A DNA stretch of 34,745 nt, from positions 1-34,745 of the forward strand of contig JAENWD010000171.1 of assembly GCA_016650245.1 (NCBI GenBank), in the 5' to 3' direction. Source of the DNA: Vicinamibacteria bacterium. Lineage in GTDB: Bacteria; Acidobacteriota; Vicinamibacteria; Vicinamibacterales; JAENWD01. The notes beneath the pieces are model-generated. The model was given only the letters and a program-made list of their open reading frames with translations, was not told the origin of the DNA and did not search any database. A program made the position numbers and the translations under genes. Shown one piece after another: positions 913-10,563 of this stretch (its first letter is position 1; each line of letters opens with the position of its first letter).

Positions 913-1605
913 CTACGGCGCGGCAGGCCCTCGGGGGATCAGGCGCCCCGTGTAGATGGCCATCCCCACCACGGCGTCCACCCCAAGGGCGTCGAGCTGG
1001 TCGATCTCCTCCTGGGTCGTGATGCCTCCGGCGGCGACGACCCGCCGGATGGTCGCGTCCCGCACAGCCCGTATCGCAGCCATGTCGGTGCCCTGCATCA
1101 GGCCCTCCTTGTCGACGTGGGTGTACAGGAACTCGGAGCAGTACGGTTCCAGGGCCCGCACGGCCTCGACGGCCGTGAGCGGCACCGTCTCGCGCCAGCC
1201 CTTCACGGCGACGCGGCCCCCCTTGGTGTCGACGGCGGCAATGACGCGGTCAGTGCCGACGGCCTCGGCGAGCTCGGCGGCGAAGTCCAGCGCCGGGCGA
1301 CCGTCCTTGAACAGGGACGAGCCGACGATGACGTGCGTGGCGCCCTGCGCCAGCACGTCGCGGGCGCGCTGGATCGAACGGATGCCGCCGCCCACACGGC
1401 ACACCCGCTGGCCGCAGACGTACTGCACCAGGGCGTCGTTGTTGCCCGTGCCGATGGCGGCGTCGAGATCGATCAGCTGCAACCTGGGAAACGCGGCGAA
1501 GCGCCGGATCCACGCGTCGAGGTCGGCGTCTTCGAGGGCCAGACGCTCACCCTGGACGAGCTGGACGACTTTGCCGTTGCGGAGGTCAATAGATGGAATC
1601 AGCAT
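913..1605 (-). CDS. hisA: Phosphoribosylformimino-5-aminoimidazole carboxamide ribotide isomerase
   Basis: [20 protein letters not shown]..., VVAAGGITTQEEI; TGATG overlap with hisF; within his operon. Confidence 0.92.
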   Translation of the reverse strand: MLIPSIDLRNGKVVQLVQGERLALEDADLDAWIRRFAAFPRLQLIDLDAAIGTGNNDALVQYVCGQRVCRVGGGIRSIQRARDVLAQGATHVIVGSSLFKDGRPALDFAAELAEAVGTDRVIAAVDTKGGRVAVKGWRETVPLTAVEAVRALEPYCSEFLYTHVDKEGLMQGTDMAAIRAVRDATIRRVVAAGGITTQEEIDQLDALGVDAVVGMAIYTGRLIPRGPAAP

Positions 1606-2360
1606 CAGAGTCGAACGGGAATTCCTCTTTCCCGCAGGTGTGCCTTCAACGCACTCACACTGTGCTCCGCGTAGTGAAAGATCGAGGCCGCCAGCGCGGC
1701 GTCGGCGCGGCCGGAGGTGAACACGTCCACGAAGTCGTCGAAGCCACCGGCGCCGCCAGAGGCGATCACCGGGATGTTCACGGCAGTCGAGACGGCCGCC
1801 GTCATCTCGCAGTCGAAGCCGGACCGCGTGCCGTCACGGTCCATCGAGGTCAGCAGAATCTCGCCCGCGCCGCGCTGCTCGGCCTCGCGGGCCCACTCGA
1901 CGGCATCGCGCGACGCCGCCGTGGTGCCGCTGCGCGAGTACACCGCGAAGTGGCTGCCTTCGCGCCTCGCGTCGATGGCGACGATGACGGCCTGGCTGCC
2001 GTACTGCCGGGCAAGCCTGGTGATGATGGCCGGGTCGGCCAGCGCGGCCGAGTTCAAGCTCACCTTGTCGGCCCCCGCCTCTACGACCGCTGCCGCATCG
2101 CCGGCATCGCGGATGCCGCCGCCGACGCAGAGCGGGATGAACAACTCGCCGGCGACCGCGCGGACGGTGCGCGCCATGGCGAGGCGCTTTTCGAGTGTGG
2201 CCGTGACGTCAAGAATCACGAGCTCGTCGATGCCCTCGACGTTGTAGCGTCGCGCGAGCGCGGCCGGATCGCCCGCCGAGCGCAGGCCCTCGAACTTGAC
2301 GCCCTTGACGACCTGCCCGTCGCGAACGTCGAGGCACGCGATGATTCGTTTGGCCAGCAT
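1605..2360 (-). CDS. hisF: Imidazole glycerol phosphate synthase cyclase subunit
   Basis: [53 protein letters not shown]. Confidence 0.96.
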
Positions 2361-2989
2361 CAGCGGGACACCTGTGTGGTCCTGGCCACGAGCCGCAGGA
2401 AGTTGCGCAGGATCGCCAGGCCGGTCTCGCTCGACTTCTCAGGATGAAACTGCACGCCCATGATCAGGCCGTCTTCGACGGCCGCGGCGAAGCGCTCGCC
2501 GCCGTACTGGGTCGCGGCCGCCGTGGCATCGTTCACCGGGCCGGCAAACGAATGGGTGAAGTACACGTTGCTCTGGTCGGCAAGACTCTCGAGCAGGTGC
2601 GAGGCTTTGGCCAGTTCCAGAGTGTTCCACCCGACGTGCGGCACCTTCAACCGATCGGCACCACCCGTCAGCTTCGTGCAGCGGCCCTCGACGACACCCA
2701 GTCCCGGACACTCCGGCGCTTCGGTGCTGCCCTCGTAGAGCCACTGCATCCCGACGCAGATGCCCAGGAGCGGTCTGCCAGCCGAAAGCCCCTCACGCAC
2801 GGCGGCGTGCCAGTCGGGCGTGAGCGAGCGTGTCGCCGAGAAGTGCCCGACGCCGGGAACGACGACGGCCGAGGCGCGAGACAGATCGGCGGGAGACTCC
2901 GGCGTGTAAATCTCAGCACCGAGGTGCGTGAAGGCCTTGCGCACGGAGGTGAGGTTCCCCGCACCGTAGTCAACCAGTGCGATTGCCAC
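2360..2989 (-). CDS. hisH: Imidazole glycerol phosphate synthase glutamine amidotransferase subunit
   Basis: [46 protein letters not shown] start at 2989 shares a base with the hisB TAG (TAGTG), so the ORF-track start at 3046 is probably too long. Confidence 0.93.
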
Positions 2990-3576
2990 TAGATCAGTCC
3001 CTTGGTACTCGGCAACGCCTTTGCCAGTTGCTTGTCCTTGCTGCACGCCACGCGCAGCGCCCGCGCGAACGCCTTGAACACGGCCTCGATGTGGTGGTGG
3101 CTGGACCTGCCGTACAGCACCTTGGCGTGCACGTTGGCGCGCGCGCCGATCGCAAAACCCTCGAAGAAGTCGTGCACCAGCTCGGCCTGCAGGTCGCCGA
3201 CGTAGCGGACCTTGACCTTCAGGTCCACGGTGGCGTGCGGCCGCCCGCCGAGGTCGAGCGCGACGACGGCCAGGGTCTCGTCCATCGGCATGACGAAGTA
3301 GCCTGCCCGGTTGATGCCGCGGCGATCGCCCAGGGCCTGCGAGACGGCCTCGCCAAGCGCGATGCCGAGGTCTTCGACCGTGTGATGCTGATCGACATCG
3401 AGATCGCCGGTGGCCTTGACGTCGAGGTCGAAGGCGCCGTGCCGGGTGAACAACTCCAGCATGTGATCGAGAAACCGGATGCCGGTCGAGATGGCATAGC
3501 GCCCGCGTCCCTCGATCGTCAACTTGAGCTGGATCCGGGTCTCGTTCGTCTTGCGATCGATTACGGCGCGCCGCAC
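2989..3576 (-). CDS. hisB: Imidazoleglycerol-phosphate dehydratase (monofunctional)
   Basis: [52 protein letters not shown]. Confidence 0.95.
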
Positions 3577-4607
3577 AGGTACTCCTCCATCGCGGCCACG
3601 GCCGCCTCGGTGGCCTCGACGGTCCCGGTCGTCACTCGGATGCAGCCGCGGCAGCCAGGATCGGCCGACTTGTCCCGAATGTAGATGCCCTTGCCCTGAA
3701 GGGCATCGGTCAACGCCGTGGCGTGGTCGCCGACGCGGGCCAGCACGAAATTCGCGCCGCTCTCCCAGTACTGGAAGCCGTGCCTCCGGCAGAACGCGTA
3801 GTAGCGCTCGCGCGAGTCACGCACCTGTCCGACGTACCAGGTGTGGTACTCGTGATCGGCCAGGGCGGCACGCAGCGCCGCGGCAGCCGCGACGTTCAGA
3901 CTGTAGGGCGGGATCAGCGGCCTGAACGGTTCCAGCGTCTCCGGCACGGCGACGATCGCGCCAGCCCTCAGCGCTGCCAGGCCCTGCGCCTTGGCGAAGG
4001 TACGACCGACGACGACGTTGGGCAGGCTGCCCAGCTCGTGGACGACGGTGTCGCCGCAGAAGTCGTGATACGCCTCGTCGACCAAGACGAGGGCGCCCGG
4101 CGGCAGGGCGCGCGCGACGGTCCTGATGTCGTCGTTGCTCACGCGTACTCCCGTCGGGTTGTTCGGGCTCGTGATGTAGACGACCCGCGTGCGCGGGGTG
4201 ATAGCCGCCAGTGTGCCGTCAAGGGGGAACGTGAAGTCCGCCCGAGGCGACACGAACACGACGCGCCCGCCGACAGCTTCAACGCTGATCGCGTACATGT
4301 CGAACGCCGGCAGAATTACGATGCTCTCGGCGTCGCCATCGGCGGGGCGGCGCTTCTGCCCGAGCACGGCGGTCAGAAAGATCCCCTCGTCAAGACCGTT
4401 GGTCAGCAGGAGCGATGACTGCGGCACGCCGAGGTACTGCGCGGTCTCGCGATAGACCGCGTCGTAGTCCGGGTAGAGCGCGATGTCGTTGCGTTCGAGC
4501 GCGCGCAGCGCTTCGAGCACCTTCGGCGAACACCCCGCGGTGTTCTCGTTCAGGTGCAGCCGCAGAGCGCCAGCGGCGGTCACTGGACGGTCGTACGCGT
4601 GGCTCAC
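3561..4607 (-). CDS. hisC: Histidinol-phosphate aminotransferase
   Basis: [50 protein letters not shown] start at 4607 in a GTGA overlap with the hisD stop; the N-terminal ~195 aa of the ORF-track entry are out-of-frame hisD sequence. Confidence 0.93.
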
Positions 4608-5845
4608 ACACCCCTCACGATCATGGACTGCGCGTGCGCGGTCAACCCCTCGGCCAGCGCCAGGGCGCGCACGGTCGGTCCCAGTGCCCTGAGTCCCTTT
4701 GCCGTCACACGCTGCACCGAGACGACACGGACGTAGTCTGCGGTGTGCAGGCCACCGCGCAGGCGCGCAGCGCCGCCGGTGGGCAACACGTGGTTGGACC
4801 CGATGGCGTAGTCGCCAGCCACCTGCGCGGTGTGCGGGCCGATGAAGATTGCTCCAGCGCGGCCCACGGCGGCAGCGGTCTTCTCGTCGTCGACGACCAG
4901 GTGCTCGGGAGCCATCCGGTTGGCCAGCGACACGGCCTCTGCCGGCGTACGCGTGACGATGACGCCGCCGTGCCGCGCAAGCGCTTCTCGTGCGGGGCCA
5001 CTGGCCGGCATCTGACGGACGACCTCCCTTGCGACCGCCGTGGCAAGCTGCGCCCTCGACGTGATCAGAATCGCGCGGGCGTCGGGATCGTGCTCGGCCT
5101 GCGCGATGAGATCGGCGGCCAGCCACACTGGATTTCCTCGATCCGAGAGCACCAGGATCTCGCTGGGGCCGGCCTGCATGTCGATGCCGCACTCAGCCGA
5201 GACGTATGTCTTGGCGGCCGCGACGTATCTGTTGCCGGGCCCGACGATGCGGTCGACGCGCGGGATGGCCTGCGTGCCAAACGCCAGTGCCGCGATCGCG
5301 TGTGCGCCGCCGAGTTGAAACAGGCGCGTGACGCCGGCAGCGTCCGCCGCTGCCAACACCGCAGGCTCGGGACGCGGACAGACGGCGATGATCTCGGCGA
5401 CGCCGGCCACACGCGCCGGAATCGCCGTCATCAGGAGCGACGAGGGCAGGGGGTACCGGCCACCCGGCACGTAGCAGCCCACCCGGTCGAGCGGGCGGAC
5501 CCGCTGCTCGACGGTGACACCTGGCGCGACCCGGACGCGAAACGACCGCGGCACCTGCGCGCGGGCGACCCGTGCGATGTTGCGGGCCGCCGTGGCGATG
5601 GCCAGCCGTACCTCGCGCGACGCCTGACGCGCCCCGCGCGTCCACTGGTCGCGAGGGATCTCGGCCGGGCCGCTGAGCCCGTCGAACTGTCGCGCGTATC
5701 GCGCGACCGCCTCGTCGCCACCCTTCCGCACGGCCTCGACGATGGCGACGACCGCCGTGCGTGTGGCGGCGTCGTCGTCATGCCGGGGCGAGAGCAAAGC
5801 GTCAACCGCGGCAGTGTCGGTCGACTTGACGATCCGGATGCTCAT
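4604..5845 (-). CDS. hisD: Histidinol dehydrogenase
   Basis: RVAPGVTVEQRVRPLDRVGCYVPGG, FQLGGAHAIAALAFGT, DMQAGPSEILVL, GSNHVLPTGG. Start trimmed to MSIRIVK at 5845. Confidence 0.95.
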   Translation of the reverse strand: MSIRIVKSTDTAAVDALLSPRHDDDAATRTAVVAIVEAVRKGGDEAVARYARQFDGLSGPAEIPRDQWTRGARQASREVRLAIATAARNIARVARAQVPRSFRVRVAPGVTVEQRVRPLDRVGCYVPGGRYPLPSSLLMTAIPARVAGVAEIIAVCPRPEPAVLAAADAAGVTRLFQLGGAHAIAALAFGTQAIPRVDRIVGPGNRYVAAAKTYVSAECGIDMQAGPSEILVLSDRGNPVWLAADLIAQAEHDPDARAILITSRAQLATAVAREVVRQMPASGPAREALARHGGVIVTRTPAEAVSLANRMAPEHLVVDDEKTAAAVGRAGAIFIGPHTAQVAGDYAIGSNHVLPTGGAARLRGGLHTADYVRVVSVQRVTAKGLRALGPTVRALALAEGLTAHAQSMIVRGV

Positions 5846-5855
5846 GGCAGCAGCC

Positions 5856-6746
5856 TTACACCACGATCTTGTTGAGCGGATACTCGACGATGCCCTGGCC
5901 GCCGGCAAGCTTCAGCCTGGGAATCAGGTCGCGCACGGTGCGCTCTTCGATGATGGTGTTGACGGCCACCCAGTCGCCGTCGCTGAGCGGCGAGATGGTT
6001 GGCCGCTGCAGGGCGGGCAGGAGGCTGAGGATGCGGTCGAGGTCGCTGCGCCGTACGTTGAGCATCATCCCCACCTTGCCGTGGGCTTCGATGGCCGCCT
6101 TCAGCAGCAGCGCGATGTTGTCGATCTTCGTGCGCTTCCAGGGGTCGCCGAGCGCTCCCTTGTTGGCGATGAGCTGCGTGTTCGATTCAAGCAGCGTCTC
6201 GATGATCCGCAGGCGATTGGCGCGCAGCGTCGAACCTGTCTCGGTCGCCTCGACGATCGCATCGGCGAGGACGGGGGGTTTGACTTCGGTCGCGCCCCAC
6301 GAGAACTCGACATCCACCGGGACGCCGCGCTGCTCGAAGTAGGCGCGGGTCACCCGCACCAGCTCGGTTGCGATGGTCTTGCCTGCCAGGTCCTCGGGGC
6401 ACTTGAACGGCGAGTCCTCCGGGACGGCAAGCACCCAGCGCACTTTGCCGAAGCTCTGCTTGGCGTAGATCAGATCGCAGATGGGCTCGAGGGCGTCGTC
6501 GCCCGGATGGCCGACCTCGTGCTCGCGGATCCAGTCCTGTCCCGTGAGGCCGGCGTCGATGACGCCATCGGCGACGTAGCGCGCCATCTCCTGCGCGCGG
6601 ATCAGCATGCACTCGATCTCCGGGTCGTCAATCGACGGGAAGTACGAGCGCGAGTTGACGTAGATGGTGAAGCCGGCGCGTGCGAACAGCTGCACGGTGG
6701 CGTCCTGGAGGGAGCCCTTGGGAATGCCGAGTCGTAAGGTGGCCAT
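5856..6746 (-). CDS. hisG: ATP phosphoribosyltransferase, long form with C-terminal regulatory domain
   Basis: [32 protein letters not shown], and a C-terminal ~75-aa region consistent with HisG long form (296 aa). Confidence 0.94.
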
Positions 6747-6782
6747 AGTCTTGGTCCGTAGTCCGTGTTGGTTTCTACAGAA

Positions 6783-6840
6783 GATCAGGAGATCAGGAGA
6801 TGTCTCTTGAAGGAAATTCTCCTGACCTCCTGTTCTCCTG
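6783..6840. repeat. Inverted period-8 repeat between hisI and hisG
   Basis: agatcagg agatcagg agatgtct ... tctcctga cctcctgt tctcctgt; CAGGAGATCAGGAGA pairs with TCTCCTGACCTCCTG with one mismatch. Confidence 0.75.
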
Positions 6841-6878
6841 TTTTGAAACGACGTCCAAACTAATCTGAAGTTCGCACC

Positions 6879-7190
6879 CTACTCCAACATCCTGAAAAAG
6901 CACGTGCGCTGGCCCGTATGGCACACGTTGCCGTCGCCCAGCCTGCGTGCGCGCACGAGCAGCGTGTCGTCGTCGCAATCAACCAGCACCGCGACCACCT
7001 GCAGCCGGTTGCCCGAGGTCTCGCCCTTGGTCCACAGCGTGTTCCGCGATCGGCTGAAGAAGGTGACGTAACCGGAGTCGCGGGTCCGCGCCAGCGCTTC
7101 GGCGTTCATGAACCCGACCATCAGGACCTCGTTGCTTGCGTCGTCCTGGACAACCGCCGGGACCAGGCCATCGAGTTTCGTGAAATCCAC
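6879..7190 (-). CDS. hisI: Phosphoribosyl-AMP cyclohydrolase
   Basis: [51 protein letters not shown]...[11 protein letters not shown]...[15 protein letters not shown] start at 7190 preceded by GGAAGG. Confidence 0.95.
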
Positions 7191-7213: not shown

Positions 7214-7243
7214 AAAAAAAACCCCCGCCGGTAACCGGCGGGG
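7214..7243 (-). terminator. Intrinsic terminator of the his leader (attenuator)
   Basis: Minus strand 5'-CCCCGCCGG-TTA-CCGGCGGGG-G-TTTTTTTT: perfect 9-bp stem (7223-7231/7235-7243), 3-nt loop, T8 tract; sits between the leader ORF and hisI. Confidence 0.93.
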
Positions 7244-7292
7244 CTGCATGACCTCTTACGTGTCTCTCGTCAGGTTTGGCGTGTTGTTCGCC

Positions 7293-7367
7293 TTACGCGC
7301 AGCTCGACGGGCCCGGGGCGGTGCCCAGGTGGTGATGATGATGCGCGTGATGGACAAAGCCAGCCAT
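7293..7367 (-). CDS. hisL: his operon leader peptide, MAGFVHHAHHHHHLGTAPGPSSCA
   Basis: ATG at 7367 to TAA at 7293; codons CAT CAC GCG CAT CAT CAT CAC CAC give 7 His in 8 codons; followed 50 nt later by a terminator and then hisI. Confidence 0.88.
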   Translation of the reverse strand: MAGFVHHAHHHHHLGTAPGPSSCA

Positions 7368-7378
7368 GACTGCCGAAC

Positions 7379-7408
7379 AGGCTAACGCACGCTTGCGCGC
7401 CGTGTCAA
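7379..7408 (-). promoter_or_regulatory. Putative his operon promoter
   Basis: TTGACA (7408-7403), 18-nt spacer, TAGCCT (7384-7379), just upstream of the leader ATG. Confidence 0.55.
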
Positions 7409-7438: not shown

Positions 7439-10189
7439 CTAGTGCGCGGCGGTCAGCACGCCGGCCCGCGTCAGGGCGTTCAACGCGCGGCCGCGTTCGA
7501 ACTCGCTGCCGATGCCCATGGCCGCATCAGCCAGCGCCTTCCTGGTGGCCGTGCCCAGCGGCGCGTTGTCGCTGAGGCCCACGATGGCCTGCGACCGCTC
7601 GAAGTCGCTGCCGATCCCGGCCGCCAGCTTGACGATCTCTGCCATCGCCGCGTCCGACAGCTTCACCTTCGACAGCGCCTGCACGACGTTCCGGCGCTCG
7701 AAGTCCGATTCCACCGCGCGCGCCGCGTCCAGGTAGGCCGCGACGTTGCTGTCGGTGACGTGCCCGCCCTTGGCCGACTCTTTCAGCAGTTGTGCGAGCT
7801 CGAAGTCGGACTCGATCCCTGCGCCGCCCGTGCCCGGCGTCGCGGCCCTGAAGATCTGACCGGCGGCCGCCGCCGTCAGGCCCGGCCGACCGACGGCACT
7901 GCCCAACACCTGGCGCTGCTCGAAGTCTGACTCGATGGACCGCGACGCCTCGATGAAGGCGGGCATCGCCGCGTCGATCGGCTGGTGCTCGACCGCTGCC
8001 TTCAGCGCCTGCGCCAGCTCGAAGTCGGATTCCATCTCGCGCGCGGCGAGCTGCAGACTCTGCGTCAGCATGGCCTGGTCGAGCTGGGTCTGCTTGTAGA
8101 GCTCCCTCAGGTAGACGCTCTTGGCAAACGAGTTGTTGGTCCTGCTGATCTCAGCGAGTACGAATGCCGGGCCGCCCTTGGCGAGCTGACGCGCGACGCG
8201 ACGATCGGCATTCAACGCCATGTTGCGGAGCATCTCCGGCAGGAAGGTGGTCAGCCACTTGCGGCCTTCGTCTGTACCGAGTTCCCGGCCGTCGACGAAG
8301 AACTTGCGCTCGACCGCGCCGTTGCGCTCGCGCGCTTCGAAGCGTTTGGTGTCCGAGGCGAAAAATCCGGCGATGCCTCCCACCCGCCGATCGACGATGA
8401 ACCAGCCGCCCGACGAGATGCTCTTGACGTCGCTCTCATCGTCAGTAAACTCCACGTCGCCCTTTGCGCTGATCTTCAGCGTCGTGCCGTTGCTGCTGTG
8501 GGTGGCGTTCCACGTCGATGTCTTGTCGCCCGACGACCAGAACCCGTGGGCCGGCGGCGCTGGAGGCGCGGGCGGGGCCGGTGGCGCCGGCATCGCCGCC
8601 GCGGCCGGCGGTGTGGGCGGCGCTGGCGGGGCAGGCGGGGCGTCGGGAGCTGGCGGCACCGGCGGCGCAGGTGGCGCAGGCCAGGCTTCATTGGCTTCGG
8701 GTGCTTCGGGTGCTTCGGGTGCTTGCGGTGGTTCGGGTGCGTCATCCGACCACCAGGACCAGGACACTGAGCGCGCGGCCCGCTGGGCATCCCGCATGGC
8801 GCGTGTCGCATCGCGTGCAGCCACCTGCGCGCTGCGCATCAGCTCGTGGGCCTGCCGCATGGCCTCGCGGGCGATCTGCCGACTCTCGGCGGATGCGCTG
8901 TACGCCTCGCTGGCGACCGTAGCCTGCTGCGCCTGTTCGACGGCACGCGCAGCGGCGGAGAGGGCGCGTTCCTGGTCCGCCATCGCGCGCTGCATGGCGC
9001 GTTGGGCCGACTGCGCCGTCTCGTCAAGAGCGACCGCCTCGTGACTCTCGGCTGCACGCGGCGGCCCGGTTGCGTGGATTGCAGGAGGGAGCGTCTGCTG
9101 CCCCTTGGTCCCTTCGGTAAACTCGACGGGCACACCGCGCATCCAACTGGTCACTCCCGCGCCGGACACCATCACGGCGGTGAGCAGCGCGACGATCCAG
9201 CCAGACGAGGCTGCGGTTGAGGGCGGCTTGGCGCCGAGCAAGCGCCGCACGCGCGCGAGCAGTGGCGATCCGGTGACGGCCATGGCAACTCCCATCCTTT
9301 CGTGTCGCAAGGTCTCGATGGCCGTCAGGGCACGCGCGTAGAGCACGGCGTCGCCGCAGGCGACAACCGCCAGGTCGTCGCAGCAATGCTCACGCTCGGT
9401 GCGCACGGCGCTGGACACCCACCAGACGGCGGGGTGATAGAACAGCAACGTCTCGACGGCGGACTGCAGCAGGTTGACGAGGTAATCGTGCCGCCGGATG
9501 TGTGCCAACTCGTGCGCGATGACCGCCTCGAGTTGTTGCGGCGACAGCCCGCCGAGTACCGCCGTCGGCACCAGCAGCACCGGACGCAGCCAGCCCACGA
9601 CGACGGGCACCTGCAGCCGCGTGGATTCAAGCAGTCGCACGGTGCGCGTCAGGTCCAGGCGCGCCGCGAGGGCGTCCTTCACCTGCTCCCAATGCGTCGC
9701 GACGGGCCGCGTGCCCAGCCGCACGAGCCGACGAGCCTGCCACCAGCCACCCGCCAGTCGCATGGAGCACAGAAGCACGCCGATCGTCCACGCCATGACG
9801 ACCCAAGGCAGGAGGCGATTGGCATCGACGACGAGACGCTGGTCGTCACGCCTGGAGGGTGTGCCGCGAAGCGGGGCCGTCGAGTCGCCCACGCGCTCGG
9901 AGCCGAGCGCGGGCGCCGGCACCATGGCGGCGGCGTGGAGGTCCTCGAAATACGGCGAGGCCGGATCGTGCGGGTCGGCCAGTTGCCAGATGGTAAAGGT
10001 CGGCGCCAGGAGCATCAGCGCAAGCGTCACACAGCCAGCGACGTAACGCGCCCGCGCGAAGCCGCGTGGCAAAACGAGCAATGTCAGGCCGAGCATGACG
10101 GCCAGCACGGTGCCTTGCCAGAGGAAATGGATCAGCCCCCAGCCGACCACTTCGGAGACACGGTCAAGGAGGGCAGGCATGTTCGTCAT
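7439..10189 (-). CDS. M56-family (BlaR1/MecR1-like) metallopeptidase with coiled-coil, Pro/Ala linker and C-terminal SDFE-repeat region
   Basis: HFLWQG transmembrane start; VIAHELAHIRRHDYLVNLLQ...EREHCCDDLAV; start at 10189 (MTNMPALLDRV) in ATGA overlap with the BlaI-like gene. Confidence 0.9.
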   Translation of the reverse strand: MTNMPALLDRVSEVVGWGLIHFLWQGTVLAVMLGLTLLVLPRGFARARYVAGCVTLALMLLAPTFTIWQLADPHDPASPYFEDLHAAAMVPAPALGSERVGDSTAPLRGTPSRRDDQRLVVDANRLLPWVVMAWTIGVLLCSMRLAGGWWQARRLVRLGTRPVATHWEQVKDALAARLDLTRTVRLLESTRLQVPVVVGWLRPVLLVPTAVLGGLSPQQLEAVIAHELAHIRRHDYLVNLLQSAVETLLFYHPAVWWVSSAVRTEREHCCDDLAVVACGDAVLYARALTAIETLRHERMGVAMAVTGSPLLARVRRLLGAKPPSTAASSGWIVALLTAVMVSGAGVTSWMRGVPVEFTEGTKGQQTLPPAIHATGPPRAAESHEAVALDETAQSAQRAMQRAMADQERALSAAARAVEQAQQATVASEAYSASAESRQIAREAMRQAHELMRSAQVAARDATRAMRDAQRAARSVSWSWWSDDAPEPPQAPEAPEAPEANEAWPAPPAPPVPPAPDAPPAPPAPPTPPAAAAMPAPPAPPAPPAPPAHGFWSSGDKTSTWNATHSSNGTTLKISAKGDVEFTDDESDVKSISSGGWFIVDRRVGGIAGFFASDTKRFEARERNGAVERKFFVDGRELGTDEGRKWLTTFLPEMLRNMALNADRRVARQLAKGGPAFVLAEISRTNNSFAKSVYLRELYKQTQLDQAMLTQSLQLAAREMESDFELAQALKAAVEHQPIDAAMPAFIEASRSIESDFEQRQVLGSAVGRPGLTAAAAGQIFRAATPGTGGAGIESDFELAQLLKESAKGGHVTDSNVAAYLDAARAVESDFERRNVVQALSKVKLSDAAMAEIVKLAAGIGSDFERSQAIVGLSDNAPLGTATRKALADAAMGIGSEFERGRALNALTRAGVLTAAH
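7442..8035 (-). repeat. Six protein-level repeats carrying (I/V/M)(E/G)S(D/E)FE, period 33-40 aa
   Basis: MESDFELAQALKAAV / IESDFEQRQVLGSAV / IESDFELAQLLKESA / VESDFERRNVVQALS / IGSDFERSQAIVGLS / IGSEFERGRALNALT. Confidence 0.9.
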
Positions 10190-10563
10190 CGCGTGTCTCC
10201 GTCGTGTTCGTCGAGTAGACGGCGAATCTCGGCCAGGTCGGCGCCCGACGTCTTGCGGCCCGACAGCGCGCGCATCACCAGTTGCATGGCCGATCCGCCG
10301 AAAGCGCGGTCCATCAGGTCGTCCAGGAGCTGGCGCTGCGTGTCGGCTTCGCTGAAGCGGGCGTGATAGATGTGGGTGCGGTCGGACTCGTCGCGCGCGA
10401 CCAGCTGCTTGTCCGTCATGATCTGCAGCAGCTTCAGCGCCGTCGTGTATCCGGTGACGCGCTCGACGTTGAGCGCGTCGAGCACGTGGCGCACGGTGCT
10501 GGGCCCGCGGGCCCACAGGACACGCAGGATGGCGAGCTCGGCGTCGGTCGGTCGTGGTGGCAT
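10186..10563 (-). CDS. BlaI/MecI/CopY-family transcriptional repressor
   Basis: PTDAELAILRVLWARGPSTVRHVLDAL...GYTTALKLLQIMTDKQLVARDESDRTHIYHA: BlaI winged helix. Confidence 0.93.
   Translation of the reverse strand: MPPRPTDAELAILRVLWARGPSTVRHVLDALNVERVTGYTTALKLLQIMTDKQLVARDESDRTHIYHARFSEADTQRQLLDDLMDRAFGGSAMQLVMRALSGRKTSGADLAEIRRLLDEHDGDTR

Follow-up and report, generated by a model that had tools for sequence, protein, structure and literature searches.

Leader locus and operon

Upstream of a histidine biosynthesis operon on contig JAENWD010000171.1 (Vicinamibacterales, Acidobacteriota) stands a short open reading frame (ORF) crowded with histidine codons and followed by a GC-rich hairpin, which raises the question of whether translation of this leader controls transcription of the operon. 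Comparison of the sequence with its relatives indicates, with a probability of about 0.9, that transcription of the his operon is attenuated here by a ribosome-mediated switch based on His codons. The whole 34,745-nucleotide stretch of the contig that was analysed is called the window here, and all parts of the attenuator lie on its minus strand. The original prediction had described a TTGACA promoter, a 24-residue ORF with seven His in eight codons, a 9-bp GC stem with T8, and then hisI, all of which were found; the distance from leader stop codon to terminator stem was revised from 50 to 49 nucleotides, and a -10 box and spacer were added to the promoter. The parts are as follows.

7379-7408, minus strand: putative promoter, with -35 TTGACA (7408-7403), an 18-nucleotide spacer and -10 TAGCCT (7384-7379), from sequence and order-wide spacing
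7293-7367, minus strand: His leader ORF of 24 codons, MAGFVHHAHHHHHLGTAPGPSSCA, predicted to be leaderless with a 5' UTR of about 0-4 nucleotides
7329-7352, minus strand: control codons HHAHHHHH (codons 6-13), the presumed ribosome stalling site
7342-7348, minus strand: putative protector segment 1, ACGCGCA, within the His-Ala-His codons, from the window fold and order-wide pairing
7295-7301, minus strand: putative protector segment 2, UGCGCGU, in the Cys-Ala-stop codons and overlapping the antiterminator, from the same fold and pairing
7298-7311, minus strand: antiterminator 5' strand, CCCGUCG-A-GCUGCG, in the final codons of the leader ORF
7235-7248, minus strand: antiterminator 3' strand, UGCAGC-C-CCGCCGG, in the terminator 5' arm and immediately upstream of it
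7223-7243, minus strand: terminator hairpin CCCCGCCGG-UUA-CCGGCGGGG, 9 bp, all G-C, from sequence and covariation
7214-7221, minus strand: T8 tract of the intrinsic terminator, with one G between stem and tract
6879-7190, minus strand: hisI, phosphoribosyl-AMP cyclohydrolase, first gene of the operon, GTG start at 7190 (NCBIfam NF000768, above cut-off)
5856-6746, minus strand: hisG (NCBIfam naming); the rest of the his operon spans 913-6746
4604-5908, minus strand: hisD (NCBIfam naming)
3561-4604, minus strand: hisC (NCBIfam best hit, below the curated cut-off)
2989-3576, minus strand: hisB (NCBIfam naming)
2360-3013, minus strand: hisH (NCBIfam naming)
1605-2360, minus strand: hisF (NCBIfam naming)
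913-1605, minus strand: hisA (NCBIfam best hit, below the curated cut-off)

The gene order behind the leader is thus hisI-G-D-C-B-H-F-A. The gap between hisI and hisG contains an imperfect inverted repeat of AGGAGA/TCTCCT units (6776-6842) that is dispersed, with eight further similar sites in the genome. On the other side of the leader, positions 7439-10563 hold genes for a BlaR1/M56-like membrane protease and a BlaI-like repressor.

Conservation and distribution of the leader

HisI was found in 44 of 60 Vicinamibacterales genomes, the window's own among them, and these served as the comparison set. A His-run ORF, defined as a short ORF with at least four His in eight codons within 500 nucleotides upstream of hisI, is present in 42 of the 44, whereas the reverse strand yields one in 2 of 44; the two exceptions (L022 and L023) also have a leader in this position, with 3-4 His and the same terminator. 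The leader region ends in a GC hairpin with a T-run in 40 of the 44 genomes. Outside the His run the peptide is variable, and leaders range from 15 to 31 residues in length. Both His codons are used in the 44 leaders (CAC:CAT = 150:123), so that the amino acid is conserved rather than the DNA. The original prediction had named a terminator retained without its His run as the pattern that would speak against attenuation, and the opposite was seen, with the His run conserved across order and phylum.

In hisI the corresponding codon counts are 53:9, and CAT thus makes up 45% of His codons in the Vicinamibacterales leaders versus 15% in hisI, an excess that may reflect sharper sensitivity or free codon choice. 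Five consecutive His codons occur at only four sites in the 4.26-Mb genome; the other three were considered as further attenuators and rejected, being in unrelated places.

Beyond the order, 30 further Acidobacteriota with a stand-alone hisI were hand-chosen from the matches, and 29 of them have a His-run ORF; the same arrangement occurs in Acidobacteriaceae, Bryobacterales and other Terriglobia. Ten lower-scoring Acidobacteriota loci (L145-L154) had no His leader directly before hisI, and hisI upstream regions of Bacteroidota and Spirochaetota gave no enrichment (1 of 29 forward, 3 reverse). A pattern scan for promoter, ATG and His run, for which the reversed pattern gave no match in either scan, located the leader in other families before hisG (L156, L166, L198) and before hisZ (L164, L165, L214, L215), along with chance matches in or before unrelated genes (L155, L157, L192, L194, L197). 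The proposed search of related genomes for His-run ORFs followed by terminators was thus positive upstream of hisI, hisG or hisZ, and the leader follows the his operon rather than hisI.

Three loci from these searches are of separate interest. In L191 (G402:C67:9313-9383), a leaderless-type His-run ORF, MQAMGTTRHHHHGPPRR, and a strong terminator precede a non-his gene whose translation, read by eye, resembles dehydroquinate dehydratase/shikimate dehydrogenase. L068 (JAIEMQ010000004.1) is titled Cyanobacteria bacterium, and its HisI locus equals that of the Vicinamibacterales genome G025, so it is probably mislabelled. L093 (CAMCUE010000054.1), titled with the actinobacterial name Ferrithrix thermotolerans, has a His-run leader and terminator before hisI, which may be due to a binning error, to transfer, or to a second phylum having the switch.

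Alternative pairings of the leader RNA

In the alignment of the 44 leaders, 92.7% of terminator cells are paired, with 12 double changes versus 3.5 in shuffled alignments, a contrast inflated to some degree by kinship among the sequences. A GC hairpin with a T-rich tract, as in the window and 40 of the 44 leaders, is typical of intrinsic termination and usually lies well before the start codon, which argues against translational control through sequestration of the hisI ribosome binding site by the hairpin. That reading draws on one subclade of family f10 (L129, L179, L180, L181), which has lost the T-run and in which a longer hairpin reaches the ribosome-binding region of hisI, adjacent to its start, and for the window we consider it very unlikely. 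The subclade keeps the leader and the antiterminator strand, and its sister genomes keep the terminator; it may have switched to control of translation, or may terminate transcription in some other way.

The antiterminator joins approximately the last 14 nucleotides of the leader ORF to the 5' arm of the terminator and the nucleotides immediately preceding that arm, as in the pairing of CCGGCGG-A-GUUGCG with CGCAAC...CCGCCGG from the set. Its cells are paired in 75.7% of cases, versus 27-53% when one strand is slid along the other, a control that leaves kinship among the sequences intact but is biased towards a structure that was itself drawn from them. There are 22 double changes versus 12.4 in shuffled alignments, with 1 of 500 shuffles as high, in a test where kinship again inflates the contrast and where the alignment was not fitted to the antiterminator, yet the structure was derived from the same sequences. 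Duplex energy is -23.4 kcal/mol for a leader's own partners, -21.2 for cross-paired and -18.6 for shuffled strands. Across the order, this pairing excludes the terminator and uses RNA in or just after the leader ORF, and it does so more weakly in the window, where the duplex is among the weaker ones (-16.7 kcal/mol, 11 of 13 pairs, two C-C mismatches in the outer helix). Of two antiterminator candidates put forward in the original prediction, GCUGC/GCAGC proved to be the core of the conserved pairing. The other, a GGCG-AACAACA-CGCC hairpin, was rejected on the leader alignment, as it lies in the antiterminator loop in the window and is not conserved.

The same covariation bears on the suggestion that the hairpin does no more than end transcription of the BlaR1/M56-like gene upstream, with the His run arising by chance in GC-rich intergenic DNA. 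The two ORFs do share a strand, and only about 70 nucleotides separate the upstream one, which ends at 7439, from the leader start; but a promoter lies between the two, the His-run ORF and hairpin recur before hisI far beyond the reverse-strand expectation and before hisG or hisZ elsewhere, and the leader end and the terminator arm change in concert; the suggestion is highly improbable. We give a similarly slim chance to the idea that the His-rich peptide is itself functional, for example as a metal-binding small protein, with the terminator only ending its short transcript. Histidine-rich peptides bind metals, and such a transcript would stand alone as a compact unit; against this, the peptide varies freely in sequence outside the His run and in length, the conserved 3' codons of the leader are explained by RNA pairing, and nearly all copies precede his genes. 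Attenuation by His codons remains the preferred reading, and the operon-level inference of the original prediction is supported by the His run, terminator and covarying antiterminator conserved in order and phylum.

In the ribosome-free fold of the window, ACGCGCA of the His-Ala-His codons pairs with UGCGCGU of the Cys-Ala-stop codons. In the same-order set, this protector pairing is present in 70% of cells, versus 15-60% when slid, with modest covariation; the helix is likely, with weaker support than the antiterminator. It would explain why an Ala or Val codon often interrupts the His run. Single-molecule folding of the full leader gave z = -1.5, which is not decisive alone.

Folding with a stalled ribosome

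Folding with the ribosome placed at the middle His codon gave a mean of -30.7 kcal/mol for the downstream RNA and a probability of 0.83 that the terminator arm pairs upstream, versus -4.3 kcal/mol and 0.46 with the ribosome at the stop codon, a contrast that is partly trivial since a longer stretch of unoccupied RNA will always fold more stably. For the window alone, the modelled stall gave 0.62-0.70 versus 0.43 at the stop, a small difference, and the terminator is favoured at equilibrium at most stall positions too. Since the terminator mostly wins at equilibrium, antitermination would have to be kinetic, decided during RNA synthesis. In known attenuators the switch is decided while the RNA is being made.

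Promoter position and translation start

The -10 box ends 7-11 nucleotides before the leader start in 39 of the 44 same-order leaders, and exactly 9 nucleotides before it in 22. Spacings of 7-12 nucleotides occur in 89% of leaders versus 5% of shuffled sequences; six leader start codons were reassigned to an in-frame upstream ATG for this count. The Terriglobia leaders have the same promoter-to-start spacing. Only 1 of the 44 leader starts is preceded by a match resembling a Shine-Dalgarno sequence. From the usual distances between -10 and +1, transcription is predicted to start within about 4 nucleotides of the leader ATG, and the short spacing together with the lack of a Shine-Dalgarno sequence makes it likely that the leader is leaderless. 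Leaderless genes have been predicted in several phyla, Acidobacteria included, with a mean of 13% in three acidobacterial genomes (PMC3160421).

A further proposal, which is possible but doubtful, is that leaderless initiation is built into the switch: the fixed distance from promoter to start would place a single ribosome at the 5' end, close behind RNA polymerase, and thereby couple the two in the absence of a 5' UTR; control would follow both histidyl-tRNA charging and conditions favourable to leaderless translation. The arrangement would be ancestral to Acidobacteriota and have been kept as hisI, hisG and hisZ replaced one another in first position.

Proposed mechanism

In the mechanism that we propose, transcription would start at or within about 4 nucleotides of the leader ATG, and a ribosome would initiate without a Shine-Dalgarno sequence. 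With ample charged tRNA-His, the ribosome would reach the leader stop codon and cover the 3' end of the ORF, leaving the terminator hairpin to form and transcription to end before hisI. With charged tRNA-His scarce, it would stall in the His run and the protector helix would melt; the freed leader end could then pair with the terminator 5' arm as antiterminator, and RNA polymerase would read into hisI-G-D-C-B-H-F-A. If the leader is not translated, the fold of the window suggests that protector and terminator would be favoured.

Comparison with known systems

The region and ten relatives had no match in Rfam, RF00514 included (cmscan, with E up to 5 for the region and the gathering threshold for the relatives), nor to the T-box covariance model upstream of the his operon. 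A tryptophan version of the leaderless pattern (TGGTGG) yielded no convincing trp attenuator in 149 genomes. In the open-access literature searched, no description of his attenuation in Acidobacteriota was found; earlier mention in subscription papers is possible (e.g. Lopatovskaya et al. 2010). Of the attenuators predicted in Acidobacteria, hardly any could be assigned a function (PMC2965389).

The type of switch is known, whereas its spread through Acidobacteriota and its start at the very end of the message appear to be undescribed. If the reading is correct, a large soil phylum, most of it uncultured, joins those with His-codon attenuation; the finding also supplies a set of antiterminator and protector partners, adds a phylum-wide histidine case to the few known leaderless attenuators, and offers an example of a regulatory leader staying with its operon while the first gene changes.

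The E. coli his leader has a more elaborate set of pairing segments than the approximately three of the Acidobacteriota leader. The enterobacterial HisL leader (RF00514) shares the short His-run ORF, the terminator before the first his gene and the structures set by ribosome position, whereas the Acidobacteriota leader has no Rfam match, is predicted to be leaderless, precedes hisI, hisG or hisZ, and belongs to another phylum. Descriptions of His attenuators exist for Proteobacteria and for some Firmicutes, those proposed in Firmicutes being from the B. cereus group, Peptostreptococcaceae and Erysipelotrichales (PMC9413887, PMC2965389). The Firmicutes attenuators, likewise recognised through sequence comparison, have His leader peptides of independent kind, a terminator and an antiterminator, and no match to RF00514; they differ in phylum and sequence, and a leaderless start is not mentioned for them in the passages considered.

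Among leaderless systems, the polycysteine attenuator ORFs of mycobacteria (Canestrari et al. 2020, as cited in PMC9031893) are, in that secondary account, leaderless short ORFs with a run of control codons before genes for the matching amino acid; they are cysteine-specific and actinomycetotal, whereas the Acidobacteriota leader has His codons and an intrinsic terminator. The trpL attenuator of Sinorhizobium meliloti is also leaderless, its attenuated transcript starting at the leader ATG (PMC7298713); it responds to tryptophan, belongs to Alphaproteobacteria and is unrelated in sequence, and what it shares with the Acidobacteriota leader is the start at the leader ATG, in the latter case predicted.
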